DNA from: Schistosoma haematobium
Lineage: Eukaryota; Platyhelminthes; Trematoda; Strigeidida; Schistosomatidae
Assembly (NCBI RefSeq): GCF_000699445.3
Contig: NC_067202.1
Location: 19,005,760-19,069,759 of the forward strand
Direction of reading: 5' to 3'
DNA length: 64,000 bases
Part shown: piece by piece, positions 3,407-57,180 of the stretch
How the letters are laid out: every line of letters begins with the position of its first letter
Position numbering within the stretch: the first letter of the stretch is position 1
Notes under the pieces: generated by a model
Told to the model about the DNA's origin: nothing
The model's input: the letters and a program-made list of their open reading frames with translations, nothing else
Database searches by the model: none
Translations under genes and position numbers: made by a program

Positions 3407-3590
3407 TTTTGATTGAGATCACGAACCGATTGATGTTAGATCACGTTTAGAGACCTGGAAGCACTGAAAGGCCGTTTCGTCCTATTGTGGGACTCTTCAG
3501 CAGTGCGAATTCACGATCCGGCTCGCAAGATTCGAACCCAGAGCCTTCGGTCTCGAGTAGAGACAGGTATCTACCTTAGTACAATGAAAG
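3407..3590 (-). mobile_element. Type-2 hammerhead SINE, minus strand
   Basis: On the minus strand: a tRNA-like B-box 'gggttcgaatct', then 'gcactgctgaagagtcccac', 'aggacgaaacgg', 'tgcttccagg' and the tail 'gatctaacatcaatcggttc'. CUGAAGAG, stem II UCC/GGA and CGAAAC are kept, but the cleavage segment is changed from CCGUC to CCUUU, which breaks stem III. Paired head to head with the copy at 3630-3830. Confidence 0.7.
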
Positions 3591-9607: not shown

Positions 9608-9935
9608 ACAAAGATAGATAGTGAATAGCAATGGAATTCAGGACGTTATGTGAACAATGCAATGACGTATTAGGTTCAAGTCTCAGAGTGAATATCAACT
9701 CTGAGATTCAGGTACATCTAACTGACGAGTCCCAAATAGGATGAAACATGCATACTGAATTCCACTATTAGCCATCATCCGTTTTTGCTTTGAATGCTTA
9801 TGGCTTAAGGGGAATTTTGAAGCAATCCTCACAGGATGCATATATGCCAGTAAGAGACTGATCAATTTACAGTCCTATACATCAATGGGAAGATTCAAGT
9901 AAACAACAATAACCAAGTGAATTGAATTTACACAA
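9608..9935 (+). mobile_element. Type-1 hammerhead SINE (Sm-alpha-like) with body
   Basis: A decayed tRNA-like head at 9610-9695 (B-box-like 'aggttcaagtctcagagtga'), then a hammerhead at 9705-9765: CUGACGAG, stem II UCC/GGA, UGAAAC, with the cleavage triplet changed from GUC to AUA. The body follows ('gcatatatgcca', 'gagactgatcaatttacagt', 'catcaatgggaagattcaag') and is shared with 57.09-57.18 kb. AUA is formally allowed by the NUH rule but stem III is weak. Confidence 0.65.
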
Positions 9936-21599: not shown

Positions 21600-21870
21600 A
21601 TACAACAACTTCCGAGTAATCGGATGTACAATGTGGAATATAGCAATGTTGTAAACAATCTATGAGTCTTAACAATTATTTACTTTAACATCATTATCAT
21701 CGCTGTTAATGCACATATTAGCTTTTGCATACCAGATACATTTCACACTTGATTTTGTCGCATTTTGGCATTTTTCAATGGAATCGTGTTTTGAACAACT
21801 TACTGTGAAAAAAATTAGAGAGACGGCATTTCAAGTTATCAAACAAAAGATATGTGAATAAGAAAACGTG
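21600..21870. repeat. Inverted duplication block C, left arm
   Basis: Reverse complement of about 34590-34855, with only scattered differences. It carries an exon of the plexin-like gene plus flanking intron. Similarity fades at 'aaaacgtgt' near 21868. Confidence 0.85.
21684..21802 (-). pseudogene. Orphan PSI-like exon, paralogue of the exon at 34651-34769
   Basis: The minus strand has a polypyrimidine acceptor ending CACAG, a 119-nt exon and a GTAAAT donor, the same length and phase as exon 34651-34769. In phase it reads ISCSKHDSIEKCQNAT, then KCIWYAKANMC. All four cysteines, the Trp and the Asn-Ala-Thr glycosylation site are kept; substitutions are T to K, EE to AK and a final E to K. Neither the transmembrane exon (expected below 21600) nor the repeat or plexin exons (expected above 21870) are seen on this strand. 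It is either a relic of a partly duplicated gene or an exon of a gene diverged beyond what I can recognise. Confidence 0.7.
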
Positions 21871-22040
21871 TCAAAGGTACAAAGAGCCCAATAAGAGGTA
21901 ATGTGGTCGCTGTCAATATGTAGAGAAAAGAATATACATTATTCAGATGTTCATTTACTGGACTGCTAACACCCAACTGGCGATCACTCAATATTTATCG
22001 TCAGGATCGACCAAGAAGTAAAGAACGGAAACTTGTTGAA
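21860..22040. repeat. Direct repeat R4, second copy
   Basis: See 16300-16525; same word order, same orientation. Confidence 0.55.
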
Positions 22041-26854: not shown

Positions 26855-26862
26855 TATATAAA
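26855..26862 (+). promoter_or_regulatory. TATA box
   Basis: tatataaa lies 46 bp upstream of the ATG at 26908. A start site about 30 bp downstream (near 26885) would leave a 5' leader of about 20-25 nt. Confidence 0.55.
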
Positions 26863-26907
26863 CCTAACAAGTTCTGGTAAGATTGTTATACTATTTTGAA
26901 CGGAAAG

Positions 26908-29900
26908 ATGAGGTGAGTGTTGACTGAACACACGAAGTTATTGTATGTACTATATGAATGTCGGTCTGATTCAACGAGATAACATTGTTTTGTTCATATC
27001 AACCATTTTAGATATACTTCTCTATCTAGTCTATTGACACCGGTTTATTTGGTCGTCATTGTGCTTTCCAATTTCTTCGACTGTCAGGATATCTGCGAAA
27101 ACCCTGAATTAGCGACATATGAAAATGTGATTTCGGAAGACTTTTTACATAAAATTGTAAGTATACAGTCAGATTCTAATGCACATACACAGTCTCATCA
27201 TTATCACTACTCACGAACAATACGTCACTATCAGAAGTATCCAGTTGTTAGTGACAGTTTTAAAAAATTTAGTACCACTCAGGTGAGTTGACTACATTTT
27301 GTAATGGAACTACTAATTCTTATGTTTGCATCTTTTAAGGATGTTACACCGAAATTTTCGTTTAAATATTACGGTAATGACGTCACTAGATTTGGGATTT
27401 ATAGTTATGGTAAGATAATTTTTTCTCTTTCACTTGAAATTGTTATTGAGTTTTGTTAATCACAATTCATTCCATGAATCAAGTTTGCTAGAATTTCTTC
27501 AATGAATCAGTTTTATGCTTTTTCTGACATTCAAAACTTTTGATAGATTCCTTTCCTTCTTGTTGAACTGATCAAACGTTCGATGTCTTACAGCAAACTA
27601 ATTACAGTTCATGAAATTCATTTTTGTCTCCAGTTCATTTCAAACTATTTCATTCATCCACTATAGAATTTCAATTAAATTGTATGTTTTCATTAAATAT
27701 AGGCAAAATAGAAATACTCGGAGAAAAAAAGTACTTCGGAAAAATATTTAATTATGTTTACGGCGATTCTTTGCCTGAATATGAGATGATAGACAACAGT
27801 GAGTTTTTCTATTATCCCATAATGTTTTCTTTTGTTTGTTCACACACACTTGTTGTGCATAAATGGTTCAGTATTTAGCTTGATTATTACACGAAAGCTG
27901 ACCAGTTCACTGTGATTATATGGTTTCTGTGATTTGGTACCAGAACATGTGTTCACAGAACGTATTCATTACTGGCAAGTTAAAATATCAAATAAACACA
28001 GGGATTCACTACAAAATAAACACAAATCGATTCAGTAGAAATTATAAACCAAGTGATGTGGTTGCTGAGTGAAAATCAACTGTTATCCAGTCTATTTAAA
28101 CAACAATGCGAAAGATGTCTCACCGACCGGATACGTCTTTCTAGATTGAATGAATCAAATTGATCGCATGTGCAACACTAAGCAATGTTGTTCAACAGGT
28201 CAAATGAGTCATTAACTTTATGAACTGTCAAATTATACTTGACGTCTTCCATTTCTTTTCTGACACTTAGTTGATTCATGAAAGTTAAATATCTCTTAGT
28301 CGCTATCTGTGGACCATTAAATGTTTAACACTTTTTAGATTATCCTGTTTATAAAATAATGACATTAAAACACACGCCCTTCCTTACACAATCAATCACC
28401 GAATGATGATTGTTCACTTAAATGCACCAGTTCACTTAAATCTCGGAAGGAAGGAAGGAAGGTGATAACTCGTCTGCCAATACATTTTTTGTTAGAATGT
28501 ATATATATTAAAAGAGGCAGATATTCATTATGCAGATATACAAATATCTTTTCGATTTTCATTTCTTTCAGATGATTTCATTGCTGTCAAATGGCATTTT
28601 CAGATGTTTATTGGAGGTACATATAAGTGAACATTGAATGATCATTTGATATCATATGAAATCTTAACACTTAAATCTACTCATCGTGTTTGCTCACACC
28701 TGCCTGTTCAGTTTGTGTAATTCAATTTTTCCCAATGACTGACAGAAGTAGGAATACATAACGCTTTTGCAAAATGAGGGTGGACTTGCACATGCAATCC
28801 ATTGATCAATTGATCACGATGATTAGGACTCGAAAAACAGTTAATATTGACTGAAAGAGACTAGACTTGACGAGTAATAAATGGATGAATGAAGTTACAA
28901 TCCCATCTCACATGCGGAAACACTGATGCACAGATTCATCATCGTTGACCGGCTTCAATGGAACTTGATGTGAAGTCTGTTTATTGTAACAAATAAATTG
29001 TGTTATATGTTCGTCCCAAAGTCATTTTCTGCACGGACCACATTCGTCGACACAGTCATCCTTAATTGTTGCCCGATAAAATCATTAAATCCTTAGGACA
29101 ATATGTCTGAAACTATTCACTTCACATCTTAAACAAATAAATCTGTGTTCTTTGTAAACGCCATGGTCGGAGTCAGTCGACTGATCGATTTGCCAGTGTG
29201 GTTAATGAGTAATTAAATTCTCAAGTTCCATTTGTGAACACACACTCCACAACACAAGTAATGTGTTCTTAGGGTCGATTGATTTGGGAGTAATGATAGA
29301 AAATATTACGCAGAATTGTATTCTTCTCGGGTTCCGATGACCAAACAGCTGACACTCATTTTGAATAAATTGTGTTCGTGTGTTTTCCATGAGGTCCACT
29401 TGATATTCTTCATAACGAATTCAACGAAGGAAAACCTTTGAGATAACACGGTATATGTTTGCTTAATTTGGATATTTTTTGTAAGTAGGCATATACAGTG
29501 TCAGAACAAACAGAAGCAAGCTCATCATCATTCCCTAAGAATTCTAAATATCATTAGTCTTTTGTTTGCAGGTATTATAGTCAAGATAACTAGTGTGATA
29601 CATTCCAATGGGAAGATATCCCTTTATTATGAGAACGTAAGTTGTACAATTGAATGGAAATAAAATTTTGTTTGAAGTACTATAGCTTGGTCCACTCTTT
29701 CTTGCGTATCAATAATGTCAAATGTATCAAGATACATTGAATACGACAGAAAGAGATGAACTTTTGTAATGTGCAAACGGACTATGTGACACTATTAATA
29801 ATCATTTAATGACACACAATTTAATGTACCACCTACTAAAAACAGTGAATAATAAGAAGAGTCATCAAAAGATAAGGACAAACGGTGTACTGTAGAGTAC

Positions 29901-32900
29901 AGCACGTAAACAGTCATATTATGACAAGATTTATTTCGTCTTCTGGAGATAAGCTGTTCGATAAGTACATTGCAGAATATTCTGAGGGATTTAGTGTTTA
30001 AACTGTTGATCGTTTCACAGTGTGTATATTTTTGAATGCCAGTATTTGATACTTCCAGTACTTCTTTTCAGATCCCCACGGGACAAACTGAAGGTCCAGT
30101 GACCTCTATAATTGAAGGTGTAATTCGGTGTGGAGGTAACAATTATTGCTGGTATTTTGATGTAGAGTAAACCCGTCAACAGTTTTCTGTTAACGTAATA
30201 TTACTTTCCGTTCGTACACGGTTATCTGCATGTCAACATAGTAACCTGCTGTTTCCGCTCACAGTGATCATATATAACTGTATTACAGTCTACAATGATT
30301 AGTTGATTTGAATGTAAGACAAATCGATTGAAGTGCAATTAAAGTGTTGAGGATAATCGTGAGGGATAAAGTCGAAATACTTTTCGTAAAATCACTGTAC
30401 AAAAATTACTGTATACTGGATATTCAACGTCAATTATATGTTAACAATTCTTGAATAGAATTTTAGTAGTTACACCCGATAAAGAATCTTAGTGAAACCC
30501 AATAATGAAAATGTCTAATGTCCTTGGAACAATGGAACACTGTATTGAAATCAAAGTACATGTGTATTCAATTCAACAACGGTCATCCTTATCACTGTAA
30601 CAAATTAGATTTGAGTTGTTGTGATGAACTTGTAATGGTTCTGTTTCAGTCTTTAGTGATAAATTACACAGACAATGAATTTCGTGATCCACATTTTCTG
30701 ACGTTTTCTTAACCGAATATTCCGAGTGATAGAACCATGATGTGTAGATATCATTACAGTAAATTTGTGGATAACTATTGAAGAATGCTTACACATACAT
30801 TTAACGACGGACTGATCACGACAGGGATATGTGAACGACAATATTTGACAGACCATATATCTACTGATTTATTTACTTGCTCACTCACTCACCCGCTCAT
30901 TCACTCACAGACCAATCAGTCGCACTTGTAGTCCTCAGTCATATGACTACTCAAACAGAAACAAAAGAGTGATGCTTGTAACTGATAGTGGTTTTATACA
31001 ATGCTCAATCTTTATGCCATACCGAAGTGATCATGTGTTGTCTTAAGATCAAGCTGAGTTTCAAGATAAGCGTTTAGTGAAAGCGATTCGGTGAAATACA
31101 ATGTTTTGTCATTAAATGTGAGACAATGCACTAAATATTTGGTCAAACGGTATACATCGATCGGTTGAAATATGTTACTTAGTCTTGAACAGTAAATCTC
31201 AATGTTGACTATGTGTAATTTGAAAAGGTCGAAAGAATTGTACCGAGTTGAACATGTTTCTTGAAGATGTTGCACTGATAATGTTTTAAAATGAATCAGA
31301 ATATCAACATTATTATTTTTCATTTACTAGTTAAACACTGGCCGCTTTCAATATCAGTAATTATGTAGAGCATGTTTTGTGAGGATTTTGTATGAAAAAC
31401 ACCATATACCTAAACAGAAATTTTTAAGTCTTAATTTTACGGTACAAGAAATGATGAAACAAATCGTTATTTAATTAACCAGAAATCAAAATTTTAAGTG
31501 TTTTTTAAAAATATATTTCAGATGTGAGAAAAGTTGAAATAGAAATTCCTCGACGATGGATAACAAGTGACACGTTAGTGAACATTGAACCTATCGAGAG
31601 TATGTTAAACCCTATTTAATCTGCATCGAATATTTCCGCACTTGAATATATCACTTCTGTTTCATCATATTATTAATTCCAAGTGTAATTTTATTTAGCC
31701 ATTTCACGATATCCAGTATTGTTTCTCTGTTGACGCTTCCCTTGCTATTAATAATTACACGTCGATTTACTGTTGGATATTCAAAATGATTAAGGACTCA
31801 ACTTCAACTACTACAGAAGTCTTAACTTTCAAAAATTTACAGATGTGAGAGAACCTGAAATAACAACTACTGCAGAATTGATGATAAGTAACACGTCAGT
31901 GGAGTCTGAACCTACCGAGAGTATGTTAAACCTTATTTAATCAGCATTGAATATTTCCGCACTTGAATATATCACTTCTGTTTCATCATATTATAAATTC
32001 CAAGTGTAATTTTATTTAGCCATTTCACGATATCCAGTATTGTTTCTCTGTTGACGCTTCCCTTGCTATTAATAATTACACGTCGATTTACTGTTGGATA
32101 TTCAAAATGATTAAGGACTCAACTTCAACTACTACAGAAGTCTTAACTTTCAAAAATTTACAGATGTGAGAGAACCTGAAATAACAACTACTGCAGAATT
32201 GATGATAAGTAACACGTCAGTGGAGTCTGAACCTACCGAGAGTATGTTAAACCTTATTTAATCAGCATTGAATATTTCCGCACTTGAATATATCACTTCT
32301 GTTTCATCATATTATAAATTCCAAGTGTAATTTTATTTAGCCATTTCACGATATCCAGTATTGTTTCTCTGTTGACGCTTCCCTTGCTATTAATAATTAC
32401 ACGTCGATTTACTGTTGGATATTCAAAATGATTAAGGACTCAACTTCAACTACTACAGAAGTCTTAACTTTCAAAAATTTACAGATGTGAGAGAACCTGA
32501 AATAACAACTACTGCAGAATTGATGATAAGTAACACGTCAGTGGAGTCTGAACCTACCGAGAGTATGTTAAACCTTATTTAATCAGCATTGAATATTTCC
32601 GCACTTGAATATATCACTTCTGTTTCATCATATTATAAATTCCAAGTGTAATTTTATTTAGCCATTTCACGATATCCAGTATTGTTTCTCTGTTGACGCT
32701 TCCCTTGCTATTAATAATTACACGTCGATTTACTGTTGGATATTCAAAATGATTAAGGACTCAACTTCAACTACTACAGAAGTCTTAACTTTCAAAAATT
32801 TACAGATGTGAGAGAACCTGAAATAACAACTACTGCAGAATTGATGATAAGTAACACGTCAGTGGAGTCTGAACCTACCGAGAGTATGTTAAACCTTATT

Positions 32901-35393
32901 TAATCAGCATTGAATATTTCCGCACTTGAATATATCACTTCTGTTTCATCATATTATAAATTCCAAGTGTAATTTTATTTAGCCATTTCACGATATCCAG
33001 TATTGTTTCTCTGTTGACGCTTCCCTTGCTATTAATAATTACACGTCGATTTACTGTTGGATATTCAAAATGATTAAGGACTCAACTTCAACTACTACAG
33101 AAGTCTTAACTTTCAAAAATTTACAGATGTGAGAGAACCTGAAATAACAACTACTGCAGAATTGATGATAAGTAACACGTCAGTGGAGTCTGAACCTACC
33201 GAGAGTATGTTAAACCTTATTTAATCAGCATTGAATATTTCCGCACTTGAATATATCACTTCTGTTTCATCATATTATAAATTCCAAGTGTAATTTTATT
33301 TAGCCATTTCACGATATCCAGTATTGTTTCTCTGTTGACGCTTCCCTTGCTATTAATAATTACACGTCGATTTACTGTTGGATATTCAAAATGATTAAGG
33401 ACTCAACTTCAACTACTACAGAAGTCTTAACTTTCAAAAATTTACAGATGTGAGAGAACCTGAAATAACAACTACTGCAGAATTGATGATAAGTAACACG
33501 TCAGTGGAGTCTGAACCTACCGAGAGTATGTTAAACCTTATTTAATCAGCATTGAATATTTCCGCACTTGAATATATCACTTCTGTTTCATCATATTATA
33601 AATTCCAAGTGTAATTTTATTTAGCCATTTCACGATATCCAGTATTGTTTCTCTGTTGACGCTTCCCTTGCTATTAATAATTACACGTCGATTTGCTGTT
33701 AGATATTTCAAATGATTAAGCACTCAATATGAACTACCACAGAAGTCTTTACGTTCTTCAAATTTACATAGAAATCACGCCACGAAACGATGGGTGAGAT
33801 GATTTAATGCTCGAAAACTTTAACCGTCTTTTGACAGATTGTGTATTTACGAGGAGGTGTTCGTTAGTTTTTCACTCAGTATATACGATATCCAATTTAT
33901 CTGAGTTATTGAAATCACTGAAACACTACATGTTATTGTGGTCATCTTGAAGGTATTAGTTTCATTTCTAAAATCTCTGCTTTGTCACGCTTGTTCGATA
34001 AATCCAAGGTGTAGACAAGTCACGCGTTCAAATTGCAATTTATCATAGTCGATATATATGTACAGTAACAAAATTACCGACGATTTACACAATATAAGAT
34101 TGTTTCCTTACTCATGAATGTGTAAAGTGAGTGTCTACAGACACTTTTCAGTTCACCATGTAATAGACTATTGAAATACCATTTCGACTACTAAGAGAAT
34201 CATTCGATAAATCATTGTTCGGATCGCCTTCAGTATTTGTCGAACAAAATATTATTTTCACTAATCCAATAAGTCTGATGTGCTAACTGACGTTAAACAG
34301 ACTGAACGTGGCCACATATTTTGAAACCTTCTATCACATAATGTGTTAGTGAAAAGATTTTCGTGGAAGCCAAAATGATGATTTGAAAAACCAAGTCACT
34401 CTTCCTTTGTCTTTCCATCGAATCAACAACATTGAAAATCAGTTTTCGGCCTGAGAACTGCTGACGTTCATGCACTGATTTCGAAATAGTCAGTGCCAGT
34501 GAGCTCACGAATTGATTGTGCACTTCACACATGCAGAAACGGTATACAAGATGTAGATTGATGATAACACTGATGTCAGTTACACGTTTTGTTATTCACG
34601 TATCTTTTGTTTGACAACTTGAAATGTCGTCTCGCTAATTTTTTTCACAGTAAGTTGTTCAAAACACGATTCCATTGAAAAATGCCAAAATGCGACAACA
34701 TCAAGTGTGAAATGTATCTGGTATGAAGAAGCTAATATGTGCATTAACAGCGATGATAATGATGTTGAGGTTAGTAATTGTTAAGATTCATAGATTGTTT
34801 ACAACATTGCTATATTCCACATTGTACATCCAATTACTCGGAAGAAACGTTCATTACAACGAATACGTTTTCATTTCATAGTAACAACAAACAATGTACA
34901 GAAACGTTGTTTAACACAAATTCATGTAGTCATATTAGTTTTTGAGCTCACTGAGCTTGTAGTGACTTCAGAAATTAAGTATGTAACCGTATATCCATGT
35001 GAATTGCCATGAATCATTGATGAAATCGGTTTGAGTGATGAAGCGTATTCCGTTGGAAATTGTATATTATGTTTGAATAATTATTGAAAGTTAGTAGACT
35101 CTCGTTGTTAAAGTGCAGAACAAAGGAATCACTGAAATTCACACTGAAGAAACATTTCGGAAAAATACCGCAAAAACTGAACCCTGTTTGGTGAATATTT
35201 AATATTTAGTATTAATGCTACCGTTTCGTTTCTCCTTCAGGACACCACTTCAGAAATAAATGGAGACAGTAAACATGATGACACACCTCGTTACTTGTAT
35301 ATCGTGATACCAGTAGTCGTCGTCGTCGCTTTCTGTGTCATATGCATCGGTTATGCTATCTGGATGTATAAGAGAAAGAAGAGTAATCTATGA
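26908..35393 (+). CDS. Plexin-domain-containing (TEM7/PLXDC-like) membrane protein, many small exons
   Basis: Spliced model, all GT-AG, phases consistent: 26908-26912, 27012-27282, 27340-27409, 27703-27798, 28572-28616, 29572-29636, 30072-30135, 31522-31599, six 78-nt exons from 31843, 32164, 32485, 32806, 33127 and 33448, then 34651-34769 and 35241-35393. Total 1434 nt, 477 aa. Exons 1-2 join ATGAG with ATATAC to give MRYTSLSSLLTPVYLVVIVL, a signal peptide. Residues about 93-205 (FSFKYYG, DDFIAVKWHF, HSNGKISLYYENIP) resemble the TEM7/PLXDC beta-rich domain (FPFYG, VQW, DGRIVFAYKEIP). A Thr/Glu-rich stalk follows, then a PSI-like Cys motif (SCSKHDSIEKC, KCIWYEEANMC), then helix YIVIPVVVVVAFCVICIGYAIW and tail MYKRKKSNL. 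Introns are short at the 5' end (99 and 57 bp) and longer later, as in schistosomes. The exon model is strong; the PLXDC assignment is by motif only. Function unknown; a surface or secreted-pathway role is inferred. Confidence 0.7.
31522..33525 (+). repeat. Tandem array of seven 321-bp units, each with one 78-nt exon
   Basis: Each unit has a 78-nt exon and a 243-bp intron. Exons start at 31522, 31843, 32164, 32485, 32806, 33127 and 33448, exactly 321 bp apart. All are phase 1-1, so any number can be skipped without changing the frame. The last six exons read as identical (NVREPEITTTAEL, then SNTSVESEPTE; one Asn-Thr-Ser sequon each). The first encodes a different 26-residue segment (VRKVEIEIPRRW, TLVNIEPIE) that aligns with the region just before the PSI domain in PLXDC proteins, so it is probably the ancestral exon. 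After the last exon the unit decays and its acceptor 'tttacag' has become 'tttacat' (33762-33768). Confidence 0.85.
34590..34855. repeat. Inverted duplication block C, right arm
   Basis: Spans the PSI exon (34651-34769) and flanking intron of the plexin-like gene; the reverse complement is at 21600-21870. Confidence 0.85.
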
Positions 35394-35598
35394 TTTACAG
35401 AAACGTCTTATAGTTTGTTTTTATTATTTTGATCGATATGTTTTATTCCGTATTTCATCTGGAAACGTCTTTACATTCTGTTAACCGTTTCAATTATTTG
35501 AACAAGTTTTATACAATTTTCTGTTTGTTAACTTATCGACTGAAGTAATTCGGTTGATTAAATAACTGAAATATTGACGTGAATTCTTTTTCTCAGTT

Positions 35599-35604
35599 AA
35601 TAAA
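35599..35604 (+). terminator. Polyadenylation signal
   Basis: First aataaa after the stop codon, 206 bp downstream of it; suits the 3' end of the plexin-like gene. Confidence 0.55.
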
Positions 35605-37276: not shown

Positions 37277-38690
37277 TTAACTTATAACTGGCCATGGAAG
37301 GGATAGGGGGGTCACGTATTTATTCTGTACACATAAGTTGAGGTTGTATGTACGAATTCCAATGGCTTCAGCTATATATAGGAGACGGGAACAGACTCCG
37401 TCGGGAAATGATGGAGGTATACGATAGATAACTCGAAATGATTTCGACTTATCTACTGCATGACCGATATCAATAAGATGTGCCAAGATAGAACTGCTAA
37501 TAGATTTTCTCTATTTCTTCATGTACCAAGTTGGTAGATGTTTACTCATTCGTTGGTTAAGTTGCCTGGTAGTACGCCCTATATAGCTCTCTCTACAGGA
37601 GCAGTTGATTTTGTAAATGCACATGGAAGAGGCCAACTCAGGCAACTTATCTTTCGTTTGAGTAGACATCGCTGGTCGACAAGAGAAATTCAACGCAAGA
37701 TTGGCTGCGTAGAATGTCCTGGTGATTACTTTGGTTAACCTATATTTCAGAGTGTCACTAGCCACATCCCCGTTGAATTGCACTTTCATGTATAAAGGTT
37801 TCTTACGAACAGTCGAAATCTCGGACTTCTTTATTATATCATGCATGTACTTCTTAATGAACACGCTGGGGTAGGGGATCTCGGTCAGTGAGTTGTTGAT
37901 GAATTCAAGCTCCTGACGTAGAATGTCTACTGTACAGATCTTTTTTGCTCTGTTTGTGAGACAACTGACCAAATTTCTTTTGTAACGGATGGGTGTGAAA
38001 CTGCGGAAGTGAGTATATTGGCATGAAGAGGGGTTTCTTCCATACACGCTTCTACTTAGTGTGCCGTCACTTTGTCTGCTTAGTGTGACGTCAAGGAAGT
38101 CCAGCTTATTGTCATACTCGCTGTCACCAGTGAAAGTGATCGCTGGGTGAACACTGTTGAATTGGTCTAGGAGTTCCCCTTTACTAGTGTTTTGATCTAC
38201 GATGATGAAGGTGTCGTCAATGTATCGGCAATATAAATCAAGTTTCTTAATAGTCTCATTGAGAGGTCCATTTTCTAGCTTTGCTAAGAAGAGATCAGCT
38301 AAAATCGGGCCTAGAGGCGAGCCCATGGCTATCCCGTCTATTTGTCTATAGTAAGTATTGTTGAAGACAAAATATACATTCAGAGTGCATCTTAGGAGCA
38401 GTTCCCTAAGGTTATCGTTAGGCAAGCCAGTGTTGATTTTTGTTTCTGATATTTGCTTGCATATAAACTTAATAGTCTCTATAAGCGGTAAGTTGGTGAA
38501 CAAAGATCCTACATCCAATGAGATCATACTTTTCATACTAACAGTAATATTTTCTACTTCGGAGGTGAAGTTGAAGACATCCTTTACAGTATTTCCAACA
38601 ACTGATGACGATTTAATTGAAAACGATTGTTCGCTTATACGTGTTGTTCTAATTTTCACAATGGGAATCTTTAATATTCTAAAATGATGA
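37277..38690 (-). pseudogene. Penelope-like element: reverse transcriptase plus GIY-YIG-like tail, 5' truncated
   Basis: The 37511-38659 minus-strand frame (382 codons) encodes RT palm and fingers: ISLDVGSLFTNLP, GIAMGSPLGPILADLFLAKLE, catalytic YCRYIDDTFIIV and KLDFLDVTLSR. After a linker comes a GIY-YIG-like endonuclease start, YKINCSCRESYIGRTTRQL, followed by QRMSKH. After a frameshift near 37500 the C-terminal tail continues at 37277-37486 (HLIDIGHAVDKSKSFRVIYR ... LPW). RT followed by GIY-YIG is the diagnostic Penelope order. The RT N-terminus and upstream region are missing (truncated near 38690). Penelope elements are known in Schistosoma (Cercyon); identity to that family is not proven. 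Confidence 0.8.
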
Positions 38691-38735
38691 AATGTTTTGC
38701 CGTAACAAAGTCTTCATTCATGACAGATGTTATAT

Positions 38736-43914: not shown

Positions 43915-45545
43915 AAAGATACCTTACTTAGTTACTTACTTACGCCTGTTACTACGAACGGAGTATAGTCCGCCGACCACCATTCTCCAACCCACTGTGT
44001 CCTGGGCCTTCTTTTCTAGTTCCATCCAATTCTTGTTCATTTTCTCGTGTCTATTTCCATTTCCCGGCGTAATGTGTTCTTCGGTCTACCACTTTTCCTT
44101 TGGCCTTGAGGATTCCATGTGAGGGCTTGTATTGTGACGCAGTTGGGTGCTTTCCTCAACGTGTGCCCTATCTACTTCCAGCACTTCTTCCTGATTTCTC
44201 CCTCCTAAGGGATCTGATTTGTTCTCTCCCACAGTTGGTTGTTGCTAATAGTGTCTGGCCAACGGATCCGAAGTATTTTGCGTAGACAACTGTTAATAAA
44301 CATCTGTATCTTCTGGATGATGGCTTTCGTGGTTCTCCAGGTTTCAGCCGCATACAGTAGAACTGTCTTAGCATTTGTGTTGAAAATCCTGACCTTGGTG
44401 TTGGTTGACATTTGTTTTGAGTTGTACATGTTCTTCAGCTGTAAATATACCGCTCTTGCTTTGCTGATCTGCACCTTCACATCTGCATCAGATCCACCAT
44501 GTTCATCAATGATGCTGCTCAAATATGTAAAGGTTTCTACATCTTCCAAATCTTCTCCGTCAATTGTGATTGGATTGGTGCATGCTGTGTTGTATCGGAG
44601 AATCTTGCTTTTCCCTTTGTGTATATTGAGACCTACTGCTGCTGAGGCTGCTGCTACACTGGTCGTCTTCTTCTGCATTTGCCGTTGCGATTGCGATAGA
44701 AAGATCAGATCATCTGCGATGTCTAGATCGTCTAACTGCATCCTAGATGTCCACTGTATCCCGCGTTTCCCTTCAGATGTTGATGTCTTCATGACCCAGT
44801 TGATCATCAGGAGAAAGAGAAAGGGTGAGAGTAAGCAACCTTGCCTAACACCGGTCTTCATTTCGAATGACTTTGTCAACTGTCCTCCATGCACAATTTT
44901 GCAGTGTAATCCACCACAGGAATTCTGGATGGTACTGACTATGTTCTCGGGTACGCCGTAGTGCCGAAGAAGCTTCCATAGTGTTGTTCTGTTCACTCTA
45001 TCAAATGCCTTTCCGTAGTCAATGAAGTTGATGTAGAGTGATGAATTCCATTCAATTAATTGTTCCACAATGATCAGTGGAGTTGCGATTAGGTCTATAC
45101 ACGATCTATCCTTACGGAATCCTGCCTGTTGGTCTCGAAGTTGGGCGTCTACGCGGTCCTTCATTCCGTTTACCAACACCCTGTTGAAAACGTTTCCTGT
45201 AGTTATCACAGCTGTTGAGATCGCTTTTCTTTGGTTTCTTGATCAAATGTCCTTCTTTCTAGTCTGTTGGTACATGTTCTTCATGTCAGTTCTTGATGAA
45301 GAGAATGTGGAGTATCCTTGCAGTCACCGCTACGTCTGCTTTCAGTGCCTCTGCTGAAATTTTGTCTAATCTTGCTGCTTCGCCACTCTTGATATGCCTG
45401 ACGGCCATGCTGATTTCTCCCATTGTTGACGGGCAAACATCGATTGGGACGTCCGTGGGTGCTGCTTCGATGTTGGGCGGGTTCAGTGTGTCTGGTCGAT
45501 TCAATAGTTCTTCGAAGTGTTCAACTCACCTGTTTCGTTGGTAAT
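43915..45545 (-). pseudogene. RTE-like LINE reverse transcriptase, 5' truncated and frameshifted
   Basis: Minus strand. 45286-45504 gives the start of the RT domain (MAVRHIKSGEAARLDKISAE). After a frameshift near 45210-45285, 44205-45209 gives the main RT: DQQAGFRKDRSC, YINFIDYGKAFDRVNRTTLW, GVRQGCLLSPFLFLLMINW, catalytic LDIADDLIFLS and NSCLRKILRIRWPDTISNNQ. The C-terminal tail runs on to about 43980 in another frame ([14 protein letters not shown]). The catalytic A/VDD box reads IADD. The 3' end at 43924-43943 is (CTTA)-rich. The endonuclease domain is absent. The motif set resembles schistosome SR2/SjR2-type RTE elements; exact family unproven. Dead by frameshifts. Confidence 0.8.
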
Positions 45546-47968: not shown

Positions 47969-50428
47969 CTAATCCTACGAGTATTCATGGAACTACCAAT
48001 TGCGATTTATACTCTAACTTGCTTCACTATGATCACTCTGAGTTTCTTATTCTTTCGTTCAATGCCCGCTCTCTGTCCAATAAAATTATTCATCTTAAAA
48101 CTCTTTTATTCCTTGTAAATCCAACCATTGTACTTATTACGGAAAAGTGGTGTAATTCATCAACTGCATACTTTTAAAATCATCGGAAGTGATTTTAATC
48201 TGCCAAAAATTACATGGGGCTTGGCTCCGGTACCAGGTCGATATAACAAGCTGGTTGAAACATTAGAAATTTGTGGATGGGTTCAACAGGTCCGAAAACC
48301 GACCAGGGGGAATAATACACTTGATTTAATGTTCACAATCAACATAGACTCTATCTCAGTGCATACCAGTCATGAGTTTTTCATGAGTGACCATAGAGTT
48401 GTACTGAGCATTATTCACCCTTTAAACGCCATACAATTGATTTGTAAAGCTTCATTGATGTACCGAAGCAGACATTTTGATCAACAAACATGGAAACGGA
48501 CTGGAACTCTCATTCAATGTTTACCATGGGAAACTTGTTTTACCACAAATAATGTTGACATTGCGCTTTCCAATCTATACCACAACCTGTTATATTGTCT
48601 TGACTACAATGCTCCAGTCATTGGCCGTGTGGCTAATAATGCTAATAGGGGACAAAATACTTTTAAAAGAAAGCTGAGGAAATTAAAATGCCGCTACTAC
48701 GAGCAGAATGATGTGTATGCACCTCAGAGTATACTTACATTAATCAACAGAAATGCTTCATTTAAACGTAAGTATTTTATGAATATAGAAAATAAATCTG
48801 TACGTAGTAAAAGCCCAGAATTATCAATAATTCGGCTTTTTAAATCCCGTGTAAAGTCTAATTCCCTTGGCACTACTAAATTCTTCATAATTAACGGAAT
48901 CGTTGTTAACGACGCGAATACTATAAGCGAACAAATCAGCAAGCACTTCTTGCAGTGCTACAAAACGGGAACTGAAAACTCCATCATTACATTTACAATG
49001 CTGACATCCAGACATCTGTCAAAAATTGATTTTACACCATCCATCATCAAGCGGGCCACAGCTGCCCTGAAAAAGTCTTACGATGGTGGACCTGATGGGA
49101 TACCTTCATCATTTGTGAAATATAGAATTAGAGAATTCCCACTATTTTGTTTGAAACTTTTCAATCTATCCATGGAATATGGGACCTATCCATTTGTATG
49201 GAAAACATCCCTTGTCATTGCTAGATTCAAAACAGGACCACGTAATGATATTATTAACTATAGGCCAATTATGTTGACATCCGTGCTCTCAAGAACCATG
49301 GAAAAAATCATCCACAAACAGCTATTATCATTTTTACTTTCGGCTAGTCTGATCAGCCCATCCCAACACGAGTTTATGACTAAACGCTCATGTTTCACAT
49401 CGCACCTGCAGTTTTTTGATCAAATTACCCAGAAAAGATATGTTGGTCACTCAGTGATAATTCTTTACTTTGATTTTAGTAAAGCCTTCGACAGTGTCTC
49501 ACACAAACTTCTTCTTTTAAAACTCTCTTCATTTGGCATACAGAATCCCCTTTTACCTTGGCTCAAATCTTTTTAAGAAGAACGTAGCCAAATCGTTCGC
49601 TTTGGATCTTGCTACTCTAAACCTGTGAATGTAACCAGTGGGGTTATACAAGGAAGTGTGGTTGGTCCATTACTCTTTCTCCTTTTTATCAATAACGTGT
49701 GTTCCCTTTTTCAGTATGGTGAGCCTTTCCTTTTTGCTGATGACCTGAAAGTAGTATATTCATCCTCTTCTCCTACGAAAGAATGCTATATTTCAGCGGT
49801 AATCCAAGAGGAAATAAACAAGTTGTACGGATGGACTGTTTCGTGGACTATGACACTTAATGTTGACAAAAGTGGATTTATGCACATTGGTCGCTGCCTT
49901 AACATAAATGTGACTGAATACACACATACACTCAAACCTCTCAACACTGTTCGTGACCTGGGTTTAAGAAATAGCAATAGTCTGAACTTTTCTGAGCACA
50001 TTATATCTCAAGTATCCAAAGCTAAATTCTGATCAGATTGATAATGATAAACTTTAAAAATATCGAATCGAGATTGTTATTATACAGAAAATGTATCTTA
50101 CCCATTCTTGAATATGGTATTTTAGTTTACAGTAATTGCAGACATAATGACCTGATTAAAATTGAAGGAGTTCAAAGAAATTCACCAAAGCTGTTCTGGG
50201 ATATTCTGATAACAAAGACTATCACCAAAGATGTCAACAACTCAACTTAGAACCTCTTTGGATCAGATGTATCAAATTAAATCTTGTCTTCATCTACCGG
50301 CTTATTAACGGTATTTCCTACTCTTCGGTATCCATCCCTTCATACCTTATGATATCATCCCACAATCTACGTAAATGTCAAGTATCTGCACGATACATAC
50401 AAAAGAGAACAAATTGGAAATAGTCATT
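47926..50428 (+). pseudogene. CR1-like LINE ORF2 (endonuclease-reverse transcriptase), broken
   Basis: Pieces in order: endonuclease N-terminus at 48040-48165 (LILSFNARSLSNK, PTIVLITEKWCNSS), then an abrupt jump to the endonuclease C-terminus from 48180 (GSDFNLPKITWG, LDLMFT, SDHRVVLS), implying loss of roughly 90-100 residues. RT follows: NYRPIMLTSVLSRTMEKIIH, LYFDFSKAFDSVSHK, a stop at 49574-49576, then in another frame GVIQGSVVGPLLFLLFINNV and catalytic LFADDLKV (about 49735). After a further frameshift near 50217 the tail YHQRCQQLNLEPLWIRC runs to a stop at 50428. The motifs fit the CR1 clade. At least three lesions make it non-functional. Confidence 0.8.
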
Positions 50429-55254: not shown

Positions 55255-55420
55255 ATTCAGTTGAAGCTTGACCATCATGGAATCTTGCAGGGGGCGAGGT
55301 CAAGAATGCGCACTGCTGAGGAGTTTCACAATGAGACGCAACGGCCGTCCAGTGTGTCCAGGTTTCCCTAGGTGGTCTAGCTTCAACTGTCTCATGATCT
55401 TAGCCATTGGAATAAGTATT
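55255..55420 (+). repeat. Type-2 hammerhead SINE, 3' half
   Basis: 'gcgcactgctgaggagtttc', 'acaatgagacgcaacggccg', 'tccagtgtgtccagg' and 'ggtggtctagcttcaactgt'. GAAA of the core is GCAA, so it is inactive although the GUC cleavage site is kept. Confidence 0.65.
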
Positions 55421-56935: not shown

Positions 56936-57180
56936 GATAGTGGTTAGCAGTGGAATCCAGGACGCACGTTTCGTCCTGTTATGGACTCGTCAGCTGGATG
57001 TACCTGCATCTCAGATTTGATGTTCACTCTGGGACTCAAGATTATACAAGCTTATACAAGCTTATAATACTTGTAAATTAAGGCAATATCGAGGCATACG
57101 CACAGAATGCACATATGCCAATAAGAGACTGATCAATTTCAGTCCTAAAACATCAATGGGAAGATTCAAGTAAAACAATA
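56936..57180 (-). mobile_element. Type-1 hammerhead SINE (Sm-alpha-like)
   Basis: The minus-strand hammerhead (56950-57012) is preceded on that strand by 'gagtcccagagtgaacatca', the end of the tRNA-like head. Plus-strand body sequence at 57090-57180 ('gcacatatgccaataagaga', 'catcaatgggaagattcaag') belongs to the same family in the opposite orientation. Confidence 0.65.
56950..57012 (-). ncRNA. Hammerhead ribozyme with intact core and stems
   Basis: On the minus strand: stem I AUCCAG/CUGGAU, core CUGACGAG, stem II GUCC-auaaca-GGAC, CGAAAC, stem III ACG-ug-CGU and cleavage site GUC. A 'gcaggtaca' stretch on the 5' side of stem I could supply the tertiary loop contact of natural schistosome hammerheads. 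No core mutation seen; the best ribozyme candidate in the window. Confidence 0.8.

Follow-up and report, generated by a model that had tools for sequence, protein, structure and literature searches.

A predicted CP391S-like gene of Schistosoma haematobium with a tandem array of frame-neutral exons between its TEM7-like domain and PSI motif

Gene Structure and Cassette Array

We analyzed a stretch of 64,000 nucleotides from Schistosoma haematobium (hereafter, the window), which spans positions 19005760-19069759 of the chromosome 8 contig (C8, NC_067202.1) and ends about 411 kb short of the contig end, in a subtelomere-like setting. The subject of this report is a predicted gene of the schistosome CP391S-like family that carries a tandem array of 78-bp exons; coordinates are window positions unless stated otherwise. 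The gene consists of 17 coding exons (26908-35393, forward strand) and encodes 465 amino acids; all introns have GT-AG borders, and the exon phases are compatible. In order, the protein comprises a hydrophobic N-terminus, a TEM7-like beta domain, a series of repeats, a degenerate PSI motif, a transmembrane helix, and a basic tail. Exon borders and phases were found by reading and checked by script; the gene is real, with an intact-looking exon chain. The initial annotation had described an unbroken chain from the TATA box to the poly(A) signal; the GT-AG borders and fitting phases agree with this, except that exon 2 of that chain holds a mini-intron, and the product has 465 rather than 477 residues. 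The features of the gene are as follows.

26855-26862 (+): TATA-like box TATATAAA, read directly in the sequence
26908-26912 (+): exon 1, coding part (ATG AG, 5 nt), from reading and the script
27012-27156 (+): exon 2, hydrophobic (signal-peptide-like) N-terminus and start of the ectodomain, read in the sequence and compared with paralogs
27157-27192 (+): mini-intron of 36 nt (GTAAGT...CAG), with no counterpart in the annotated proteins P0001 and P0003
27193-27282 (+): exon 3, region of the HHYHYSR motif, by exon script and homolog alignment
27340-27409 (+): exon 4, TEM7-like domain, PKFSFKYYG, by exon script and profile comparison
27703-27798 (+): exon 5, TEM7-like domain, 96 bp, phase 1-1, frame-neutral, by exon script and paralogs
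28572-28616 (+): exon 6, TEM7-like domain, FIAVKW, with the weak donor G|GTACAT, by exon script and donor comparison
29572-29636 (+): exon 7, TEM7-like domain, SNGKISLYYEN, by exon script and profile comparison
30072-30135 (+): exon 8, TEM7-like domain with a conserved cysteine at its end, by exon script and homolog alignment
31522-31599 (+): exon 9, A-type 78-bp cassette IPRRWITSDTLVNIEPIE, corresponding to the last two TEM7-like strands in the P0001 model
31843-31920 (+): exon 10, B-type cassette 1 NVREPEITTTAELMISNTSVESEPTE, by exon script, as are the five below
32164-32241 (+): exon 11, B-type cassette 2, identical
32485-32562 (+): exon 12, B-type cassette 3, identical
32806-32883 (+): exon 13, B-type cassette 4, identical
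33127-33204 (+): exon 14, B-type cassette 5, identical
33448-33525 (+): exon 15, B-type cassette 6, identical
31565-33768 (+): tandem array of the 321-bp exon-intron unit, 6.9 copies, by Tandem Repeats Finder (TRF)
33769-33795 (+): gaaatcacgccacgaaacgatggg, perhaps left over from another cassette, with no open exon, found by eye
34651-34769 (+): exon 16, degenerate PSI with CIWY instead of CIWC, by Pfam, exon script, and family alignment
35241-35393 (+): exon 17, juxtamembrane segment, transmembrane helix (helix 281-310 in the P0001 model), tail WMYKRKKSNL, and stop
35391-35393 (+): stop codon TGA, by exon script
35599-35604 (+): poly(A) signal AATAAA, read directly

Exons 9-15 are 78 bp each, in phase 1-1 and hence frame-neutral, and form with their intron a unit of 321 bp. 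One A-type copy (exon 9) is followed by six B-type copies (exons 10-15) that are 100% identical, with 0 differences over 78 positions. The five introns that follow exons 10-14 agree in all 243 bases; 19 positions differ near the end of the one following exon 15, and four differ in the one following exon 9. Exons 9 and 10 differ at 21 of 78 positions, and all of these differences are nonsynonymous (0 synonymous on 17.2 sites). The A copy keeps the domain motif, and the B copies form a Thr/Ser/Glu-rich spacer of 26 residues each. Frame-neutral repeated exons between the TEM7-like domain and PSI, as proposed in the initial annotation, are thus indeed present: the six phase-1 B cassettes make up 156 residues there. 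Each B copy in the window contains one N-glycosylation sequon, NTS; none occurs in the B copies, 16 in all, of the five other genes in which such copies are clear. Among 35 aligned family members, all 25 that span the region lack a repeat insertion between the two domains.

The label "micro-exon-style" did not survive. Exons after the first are 45-153 bp long, symmetric internal exons are 45-96 bp, and the only tiny coding exon is exon 1, with 5 nt. Of the 15 internal exons, ten have a length divisible by three.

TEM7-Like Domain and PSI Motif

To identify the main domain, a 15-member family profile was compared with an 11-member PLXDC2 profile by hhalign, with 200 column shuffles as a background. 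The TEM7 part without PSI scored 31.7, above all 200 shuffles (mean 12.9, maximum 21.0), with an hhalign probability of only 36. For TEM7 and PSI together without the membrane part, the probability was 95.8, the E-value 8e-9, and the score 62.9, again reached by none of the 200 shuffles (maximum 26.1). The PSI-only profile scored 27.2, which one of 200 shuffles reached. A comparison including the membrane region (E 4e-26) was dropped because one of 200 shuffles scored higher. At the level of single sequences, BLASTP of P0005 against shark PLXDC2 gave an E-value of 0.013, which is only suggestive. Taken together, the profile comparisons support the assignment of the main domain as TEM7/PLXDC-like, N-terminal to PSI, in line with what had been suggested for this locus.

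The structural model of P0001 has a mean predicted local distance difference test (pLDDT) score of 83. The cassette residues correspond to strands 204-207 and 216-222 of this model, the last two of the domain, and its helices span residues 5-24 and 281-310. Foldseek and VIA-align with this model yielded only weak matches to unrelated beta domains, for example those of beta-galactosidase and galactose mutarotase, and sequence searches of the PDB with the window protein and with the family profile found nothing relevant. The PLXDC2 model was not used, its mean pLDDT being 36.7. Of the signal peptide, transmembrane helix, and basic tail described at the outset, the helix is predicted and the basic tail is there, if short; the N-terminus is hydrophobic as read in the sequence.

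The claim of a PSI-like cysteine motif holds in part. The motif is present, but four of the six family cysteines are kept, the second cysteine of CxWC and the last one being lost. These two would pair in PSI folds, so the change looks like the loss of one disulfide. All six are kept in 22 of 25 aligned members, and the same two-cysteine loss is seen in the remaining three (P0001, P0002, and P0031). The Pfam PSI model scores 15.4 bits on the window protein, below the cut-off of 23.1, and matches 15 of 35 relatives at E <= 0.01 (best 1.1e-5).

The PSI exon and its flanks recur as a 263-bp copy at 21609-21871 on the reverse strand; this copy is 94.7% identical to 34582-34844, and its exon is open. 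It is a piece of a duplicated gene. Outside the gene and this fragment, the window showed no further clear family exons.

The CP391S-Like Family

A database search was made with a 347-residue form of the protein that contains one B cassette and keeps the mini-intron, among candidates of about 190-607 residues. Ten matches were obtained at E-values up to 0.01. The best is P0001 from S. haematobium (61% identity over 100% of the length), another shows 71% identity over 59% of the query, and none among the database-search matches in this length range is equal to the window gene. The CP391S-like protein P0007 is 31% identical, and P0008 from S. mansoni (Egg protein CP391S-like) is 37% identical over 86%; several other family matches also bear the name Egg protein CP391S-like. 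A wider search, with E-values up to 0.1, gave 30 matches, including P0029 (S. haematobium MS3_00004839, on contig C4). In both searches, all matches with a named source come from Schistosoma (P0027 is nameless). Judged by sequence similarity, the window protein is a member of the plexin domain-containing/CP391S-like family, its gene lying in a sub-cluster on chromosome 8, and the 30% identity of the published clustering is reached. Another S. haematobium protein, P0036, annotated as "kinase suppressor of Ras 2, partial", has a TEM7-family segment at its end and is probably an annotation fusion.

The accessible part of a study of S. mansoni (PMC10900676) describes a cluster of 49 copies, 36 of them subtelomeric, and 47 further genes, all renamed plexin domain-containing and expressed exclusively in the tegument of intramolluscan stages. 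According to the same text, a signal peptide is present in 35 of the 49 members and a C-terminal membrane helix in 28 of those 35, and the large core domain could not be identified. A CxWC motif with flanking cysteine pairs is given there as a characteristic of the family, not as a clustering criterion (PMC10900676); the window protein deviates from it, with CIWY and without the last cysteine. Varied exon composition is described in that part of the source, with no exon arrays. In a literature search made mostly without full texts and covering few subscription journals, we came across no description of exon arrays for CP391S-like genes. Other reports mention a family member with enrichment in one tegument cluster of sporocysts (PMC10933418), a CP391B-like protein in water from infected snails, with CP391B cited as sporocyst-stage only in S. 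japonicum (PMC6744689), and a CP391S-like protein in miracidia (PMC4723143).

Paralogs and Cassette Copy Number

Thirteen paralogous stretches were fetched from the assembly. Eight of them hold the main body of a paralog, giving nine genes together with the window; only part of the exons is present in L032, L041, L042, and L043, and L037 is the continuation of L036. The exon order is the same in all eight paralogous loci, four of which have lost some exons or carry damaged ones, and ATGAG followed by GT upstream of exon 2 is found in seven of the eight (all but L033). The number of cassettes varies: seven in the window gene, L035, and L036, three in L040, two in L033 and L039, and one in L031, L034, and L038. 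Of the 31 cassettes in the nine genes, all but one have an open frame and AG and GT borders; the remaining one, in L034, contains stops within its 78-nt cut and seems by eye to lack one base. As evidence for an expandable stalk, this gene-level variation in cassette number carries more weight than alternative splicing would.

B copies differ on average at 1.2 of 78 positions within genes (46 pairs) and at 7.0 between genes (185 pairs). Identical B copies within a gene are formed by the six of the window, the two of L040, and five of the six of L036. L035 has four B versions, one of them also present in L033 and one in L036. This pattern fits homogenization within genes; between genes, it fits some exchange or else recent common descent.

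A search of the 400-Mb assembly with the 321-bp unit gave at least 63 matches. Among the matches listed, those of 85% identity or more are all on chromosome 8, except one gene on contig C4. The annotated protein P0003 (S. haematobium MS3_00009755) matches two paralogs piecewise, L035 at 94-97% and L036 at 91-97%; its end falls within the intron that follows exon 8, ahead of the array. That the annotated gene whose best match is L035 stops short of the array suggests that the current annotation can miss exon arrays. In the L041-L043 stretches, only PSI, or PSI and transmembrane, exons were found. The L032 stretch (C8 19476400-19481189), in which only exons 2-4 were found, lies within 4.8 kb of the contig end.

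A second stalk position is seen elsewhere in the family. Repeats occur after PSI in P0008 of S. mansoni (about 33 residues) and P0010 of S. haematobium (about 43 residues). At L047 on chromosome 6 (C6, about 21.319-21.322 Mb; L047 6586-9306), three tandem units of about 0.9 kb, 95-96% identical, each contain a post-PSI stalk exon, the second half of the PSI exon having been copied along with it; L048 and L049 have one such exon each. Thus, exon arrays extend the stalk at two places in the family, upstream of PSI on chromosome 8 and downstream of it on chromosome 6.

Splice-Site Peculiarities

The 12 residues that the mini-intron would encode are absent from the annotated homologs P0001 and P0003; P0024 retains an equivalent segment. 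This frame-neutral 36-nt stretch is also the least diverged one measured among the paralogs (mean p 0.026; 28 pairs from eight genes, with L039 left out). About 31 residues of the exon 5 region that are found in P0019 (S. haematobium MS3_00000699, on C6) are missing in P0022. For exon 6, a GTAAGC donor lies 6 nt farther downstream in six of the eight paralogs (L031, L033, L034, L035, L039, and L040), in agreement with the annotated P0001 and P0003 proteins. Exon 6 is frame-neutral, therefore a 6-nt shift or a skip would keep the reading frame. Read-through past exon 8 (30136-30170) would add GNNYCWYFDVE followed by a stop, and the annotated P0003 ends likewise; a truncated, possibly secreted form ending after exon 8 is conceivable.

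Divergence and Selection

Mean divergence among the paralogs is 0.108-0.201 in exons 4-8, 0.189 in cassette A, 0.085-0.106 in exons 2-3, 0.068 in the PSI exon, 0.052 in the transmembrane exon, and 0.050-0.093 in introns; that is, the ectodomain exons diverge faster than introns. For the ratio of nonsynonymous to synonymous differences per site (pN/pS), the frameshifted L034 was left out, the misregistered exons 3 and 5 of L039 and exons of unequal length were masked, and the single cassette of L031 (B-type by BLAST) was used as its A and left out of the B counts. The ectodomain core shows a pN/pS of 1.55 in eight genes (bootstrap interval 1.09-2.45) and 1.72 in the five genes with open frames (1.19-2.80). 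The N-terminal exons have corresponding values of 0.83 and 0.64, and the PSI and transmembrane exons of 1.16 and 0.92; outside the ectodomain, pN/pS is not significantly above 1. Within six genes, the A copy and the first B copy differ by 14 synonymous and 120 nonsynonymous changes in sum, on 102 and 348 sites, respectively; since the A/B split is probably common to the genes, these six contrasts are not independent events.

Origin of the Array and Alternative Explanations

The phase-1, 78-bp exon for the last TEM7 hairpin stands in a tandem array together with its intron. This array would grow and shrink by unequal crossing-over between the 321-bp units, with some exchange between genes. Because the units are frame-neutral, every change in their number would be an in-frame change in stalk length. 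The TEM7 domain and its hairpin may be under diversifying selection. Judging by analogy from the S. mansoni members, the protein may reside on the tegument of snail-stage larvae, where it would expose to the snail host a variable head carried on a stalk that differs in length. We assign a probability of about 0.6 to this reading as a whole, that is, a CP391S-like protein with a TEM7-like head under diversifying selection and a stalk length set by cassette number, exposed on the tegument in the snail stage.

Several observations weigh against it. The gene model and all arrays are known from the genomic sequence alone, and stage and tissue are taken from the S. mansoni relatives, not from the window gene. 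The weak fold matches of the P0001 model are taken as a common beta arrangement only, and no solved structure clearly matches the domain. When the cassette is removed, pN/pS for exons 4-8 is 1.50 and 1.65, with intervals starting at 0.99. The counts are pairwise rather than tree-based, and in four disjoint gene pairs the ectodomain reaches only p = 0.032 (0.70 for the N-terminal exons and 0.42 for PSI and transmembrane). Values near 1 in the PSI and transmembrane exons show little constraint there. Homogenization is uneven: the B copies of L035 differ at 3.5 positions on average, and four of the 185 between-gene pairs are identical (L035 with L033 and L036). At the downstream donor position of exon 6, the window gene has ATAAGT, as do L036 and L038, and in the window the weak G|GTACAT remains; this donor appears to be the main doubt about the window copy, the function of which is not assured. 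By a simple check, four of the nine genes have stops, lost exons, or shifted exon lengths, and because of this damage and the weak donor the window copy could itself be decaying.

Indeed, the array might be a neutral exon-intron minisatellite in a decaying paralog, the fast exon divergence reflecting relaxed constraint. The weak exon 6 donor shared with the damaged copies L036 and L038, the two lost PSI cysteines, the near-neutral pN/pS outside the ectodomain, and the existence of partial copies (the PSI fragment and L041-L043) all speak for this explanation, which we consider unlikely but deserving attention: all 17 exons of the window gene are open with AG and GT borders, an excess of pN over pS in the ectodomain is not given by relaxation alone, and nearly all cassettes of the nine genes are open, although copies in one array are not independent. 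The identity of exons 10-15 and of the introns between them could also point to an assembly artefact. This seems improbable, as arrays of other sequence are present in L035, L036, and L040, and the introns at both ends of the window array differ from the rest.

Stalk length might instead be set in RNA, mainly by skipping of frame-neutral exons as in micro-exon genes, and not by gene copy number. The prevalence of exons divisible by three is compatible with such splicing, as are the absence of the cassette exon from four of the 25 annotated members spanning the region (P0006, P0023, P0024, and P0028) and the lack of most of the exon 5 part in P0022. These family models may be predictions, however, the exons after the first are not micro-exons, and the copy number demonstrably varies at the gene level, so we regard splicing as a rather unlikely main cause. 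It is hardly credible that the gene encodes an ordinary PLXDC-type signaling receptor orthologous to vertebrate PLXDC1/2. The domain order is the same, and the profiles match, but the gene belongs to a large multi-copy family rather than being a single ortholog, its PSI is degenerate, a stalk is inserted between TEM7 and PSI, and the tail has about 10 residues, compared with the longer tail of the PLXDC2 consensus.

The largest part of these larval tegument proteins, previously without an identified domain, is now linked to TEM7/PLXDC, and the family is a testable candidate for host-parasite matching in the snail. More tentatively, and with the odds somewhat against it, the family may form a second length- and sequence-variable surface system, independent of SmPoMuc, with diversifying TEM7 heads on cassette-set stalks that arose at two positions, ahead of PSI on chromosome 8 and behind it on chromosome 6. 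In that case, the cassette number would be polymorphic between worms and would matter for compatibility with the snail host.

The surroundings of the gene contain mobile-element sequences and ribozymes. Open reading frames of retroelement reverse transcriptases flank it at 37514-38713 (-), 44208-45242 (-), and 48119-50029 (+), and five type I hammerhead ribozymes (Rfam RF00163) are found at 2663-2707, 3461-3506, 9716-9760, 55310-55355, and 56955-56999.

Comparison with Known Systems

The closest known relatives are the plexin domain-containing proteins of S. mansoni. Homology extends along the non-repeat part of the protein, and both have a hydrophobic N-terminus, a conserved core, PSI, and a predicted membrane helix, belong to multi-copy families, and lie near a chromosome end; the window copy differs in its seven cassettes between the TEM7 core and PSI and in its reduced PSI. 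Vertebrate PLXDC1 and PLXDC2 (TEM7 and TEM7R) share the order of a TEM7-like domain, PSI, and one membrane helix, with a significant profile match to PLXDC2. In PLXDC2, TEM7 adjoins PSI and the tail is longer, whereas the window gene has a 156-residue repeat between the domains and belongs to an expanded family. The adjacent arrangement of TEM7 and PSI, not seen in the window gene, is found in its one-cassette paralogs.

Micro-exon genes (MEGs), whose coding sequence consists mostly of very small symmetric exons according to PMC4350168, resemble the window gene in having frame-neutral exons and in acting at the host-parasite interface. Unlike them, it has repeated exons of 78 bp and encodes a conserved animal domain; its identification as a MEG was rejected on exon size.

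In mechanism, the array resembles SmPoMuc of S. mansoni, where, as described in PMC2576457, an exon and introns are tandemly repeated in units of about 1 kb with a 27-bp exon, homogenized and variable in number. In both cases an exon-intron unit is repeated in tandem with varying copy number (here, a 321-bp unit in 1-7 copies among nine paralogs of one assembly). The repeats of SmPoMuc are 9 residues long and directly follow the signal peptide, in contrast to the 26-residue, hairpin-derived unit between two domains of a membrane-anchored protein found here. SmPoMuc was not among the 10 protein-search matches, and no common domain was seen. Thus, the array works like that of SmPoMuc, but the protein is not a member of that family, and frame-neutral stalk cassettes differing in number between paralogs provide a second schistosome case of the SmPoMuc principle, realized in an unrelated protein.

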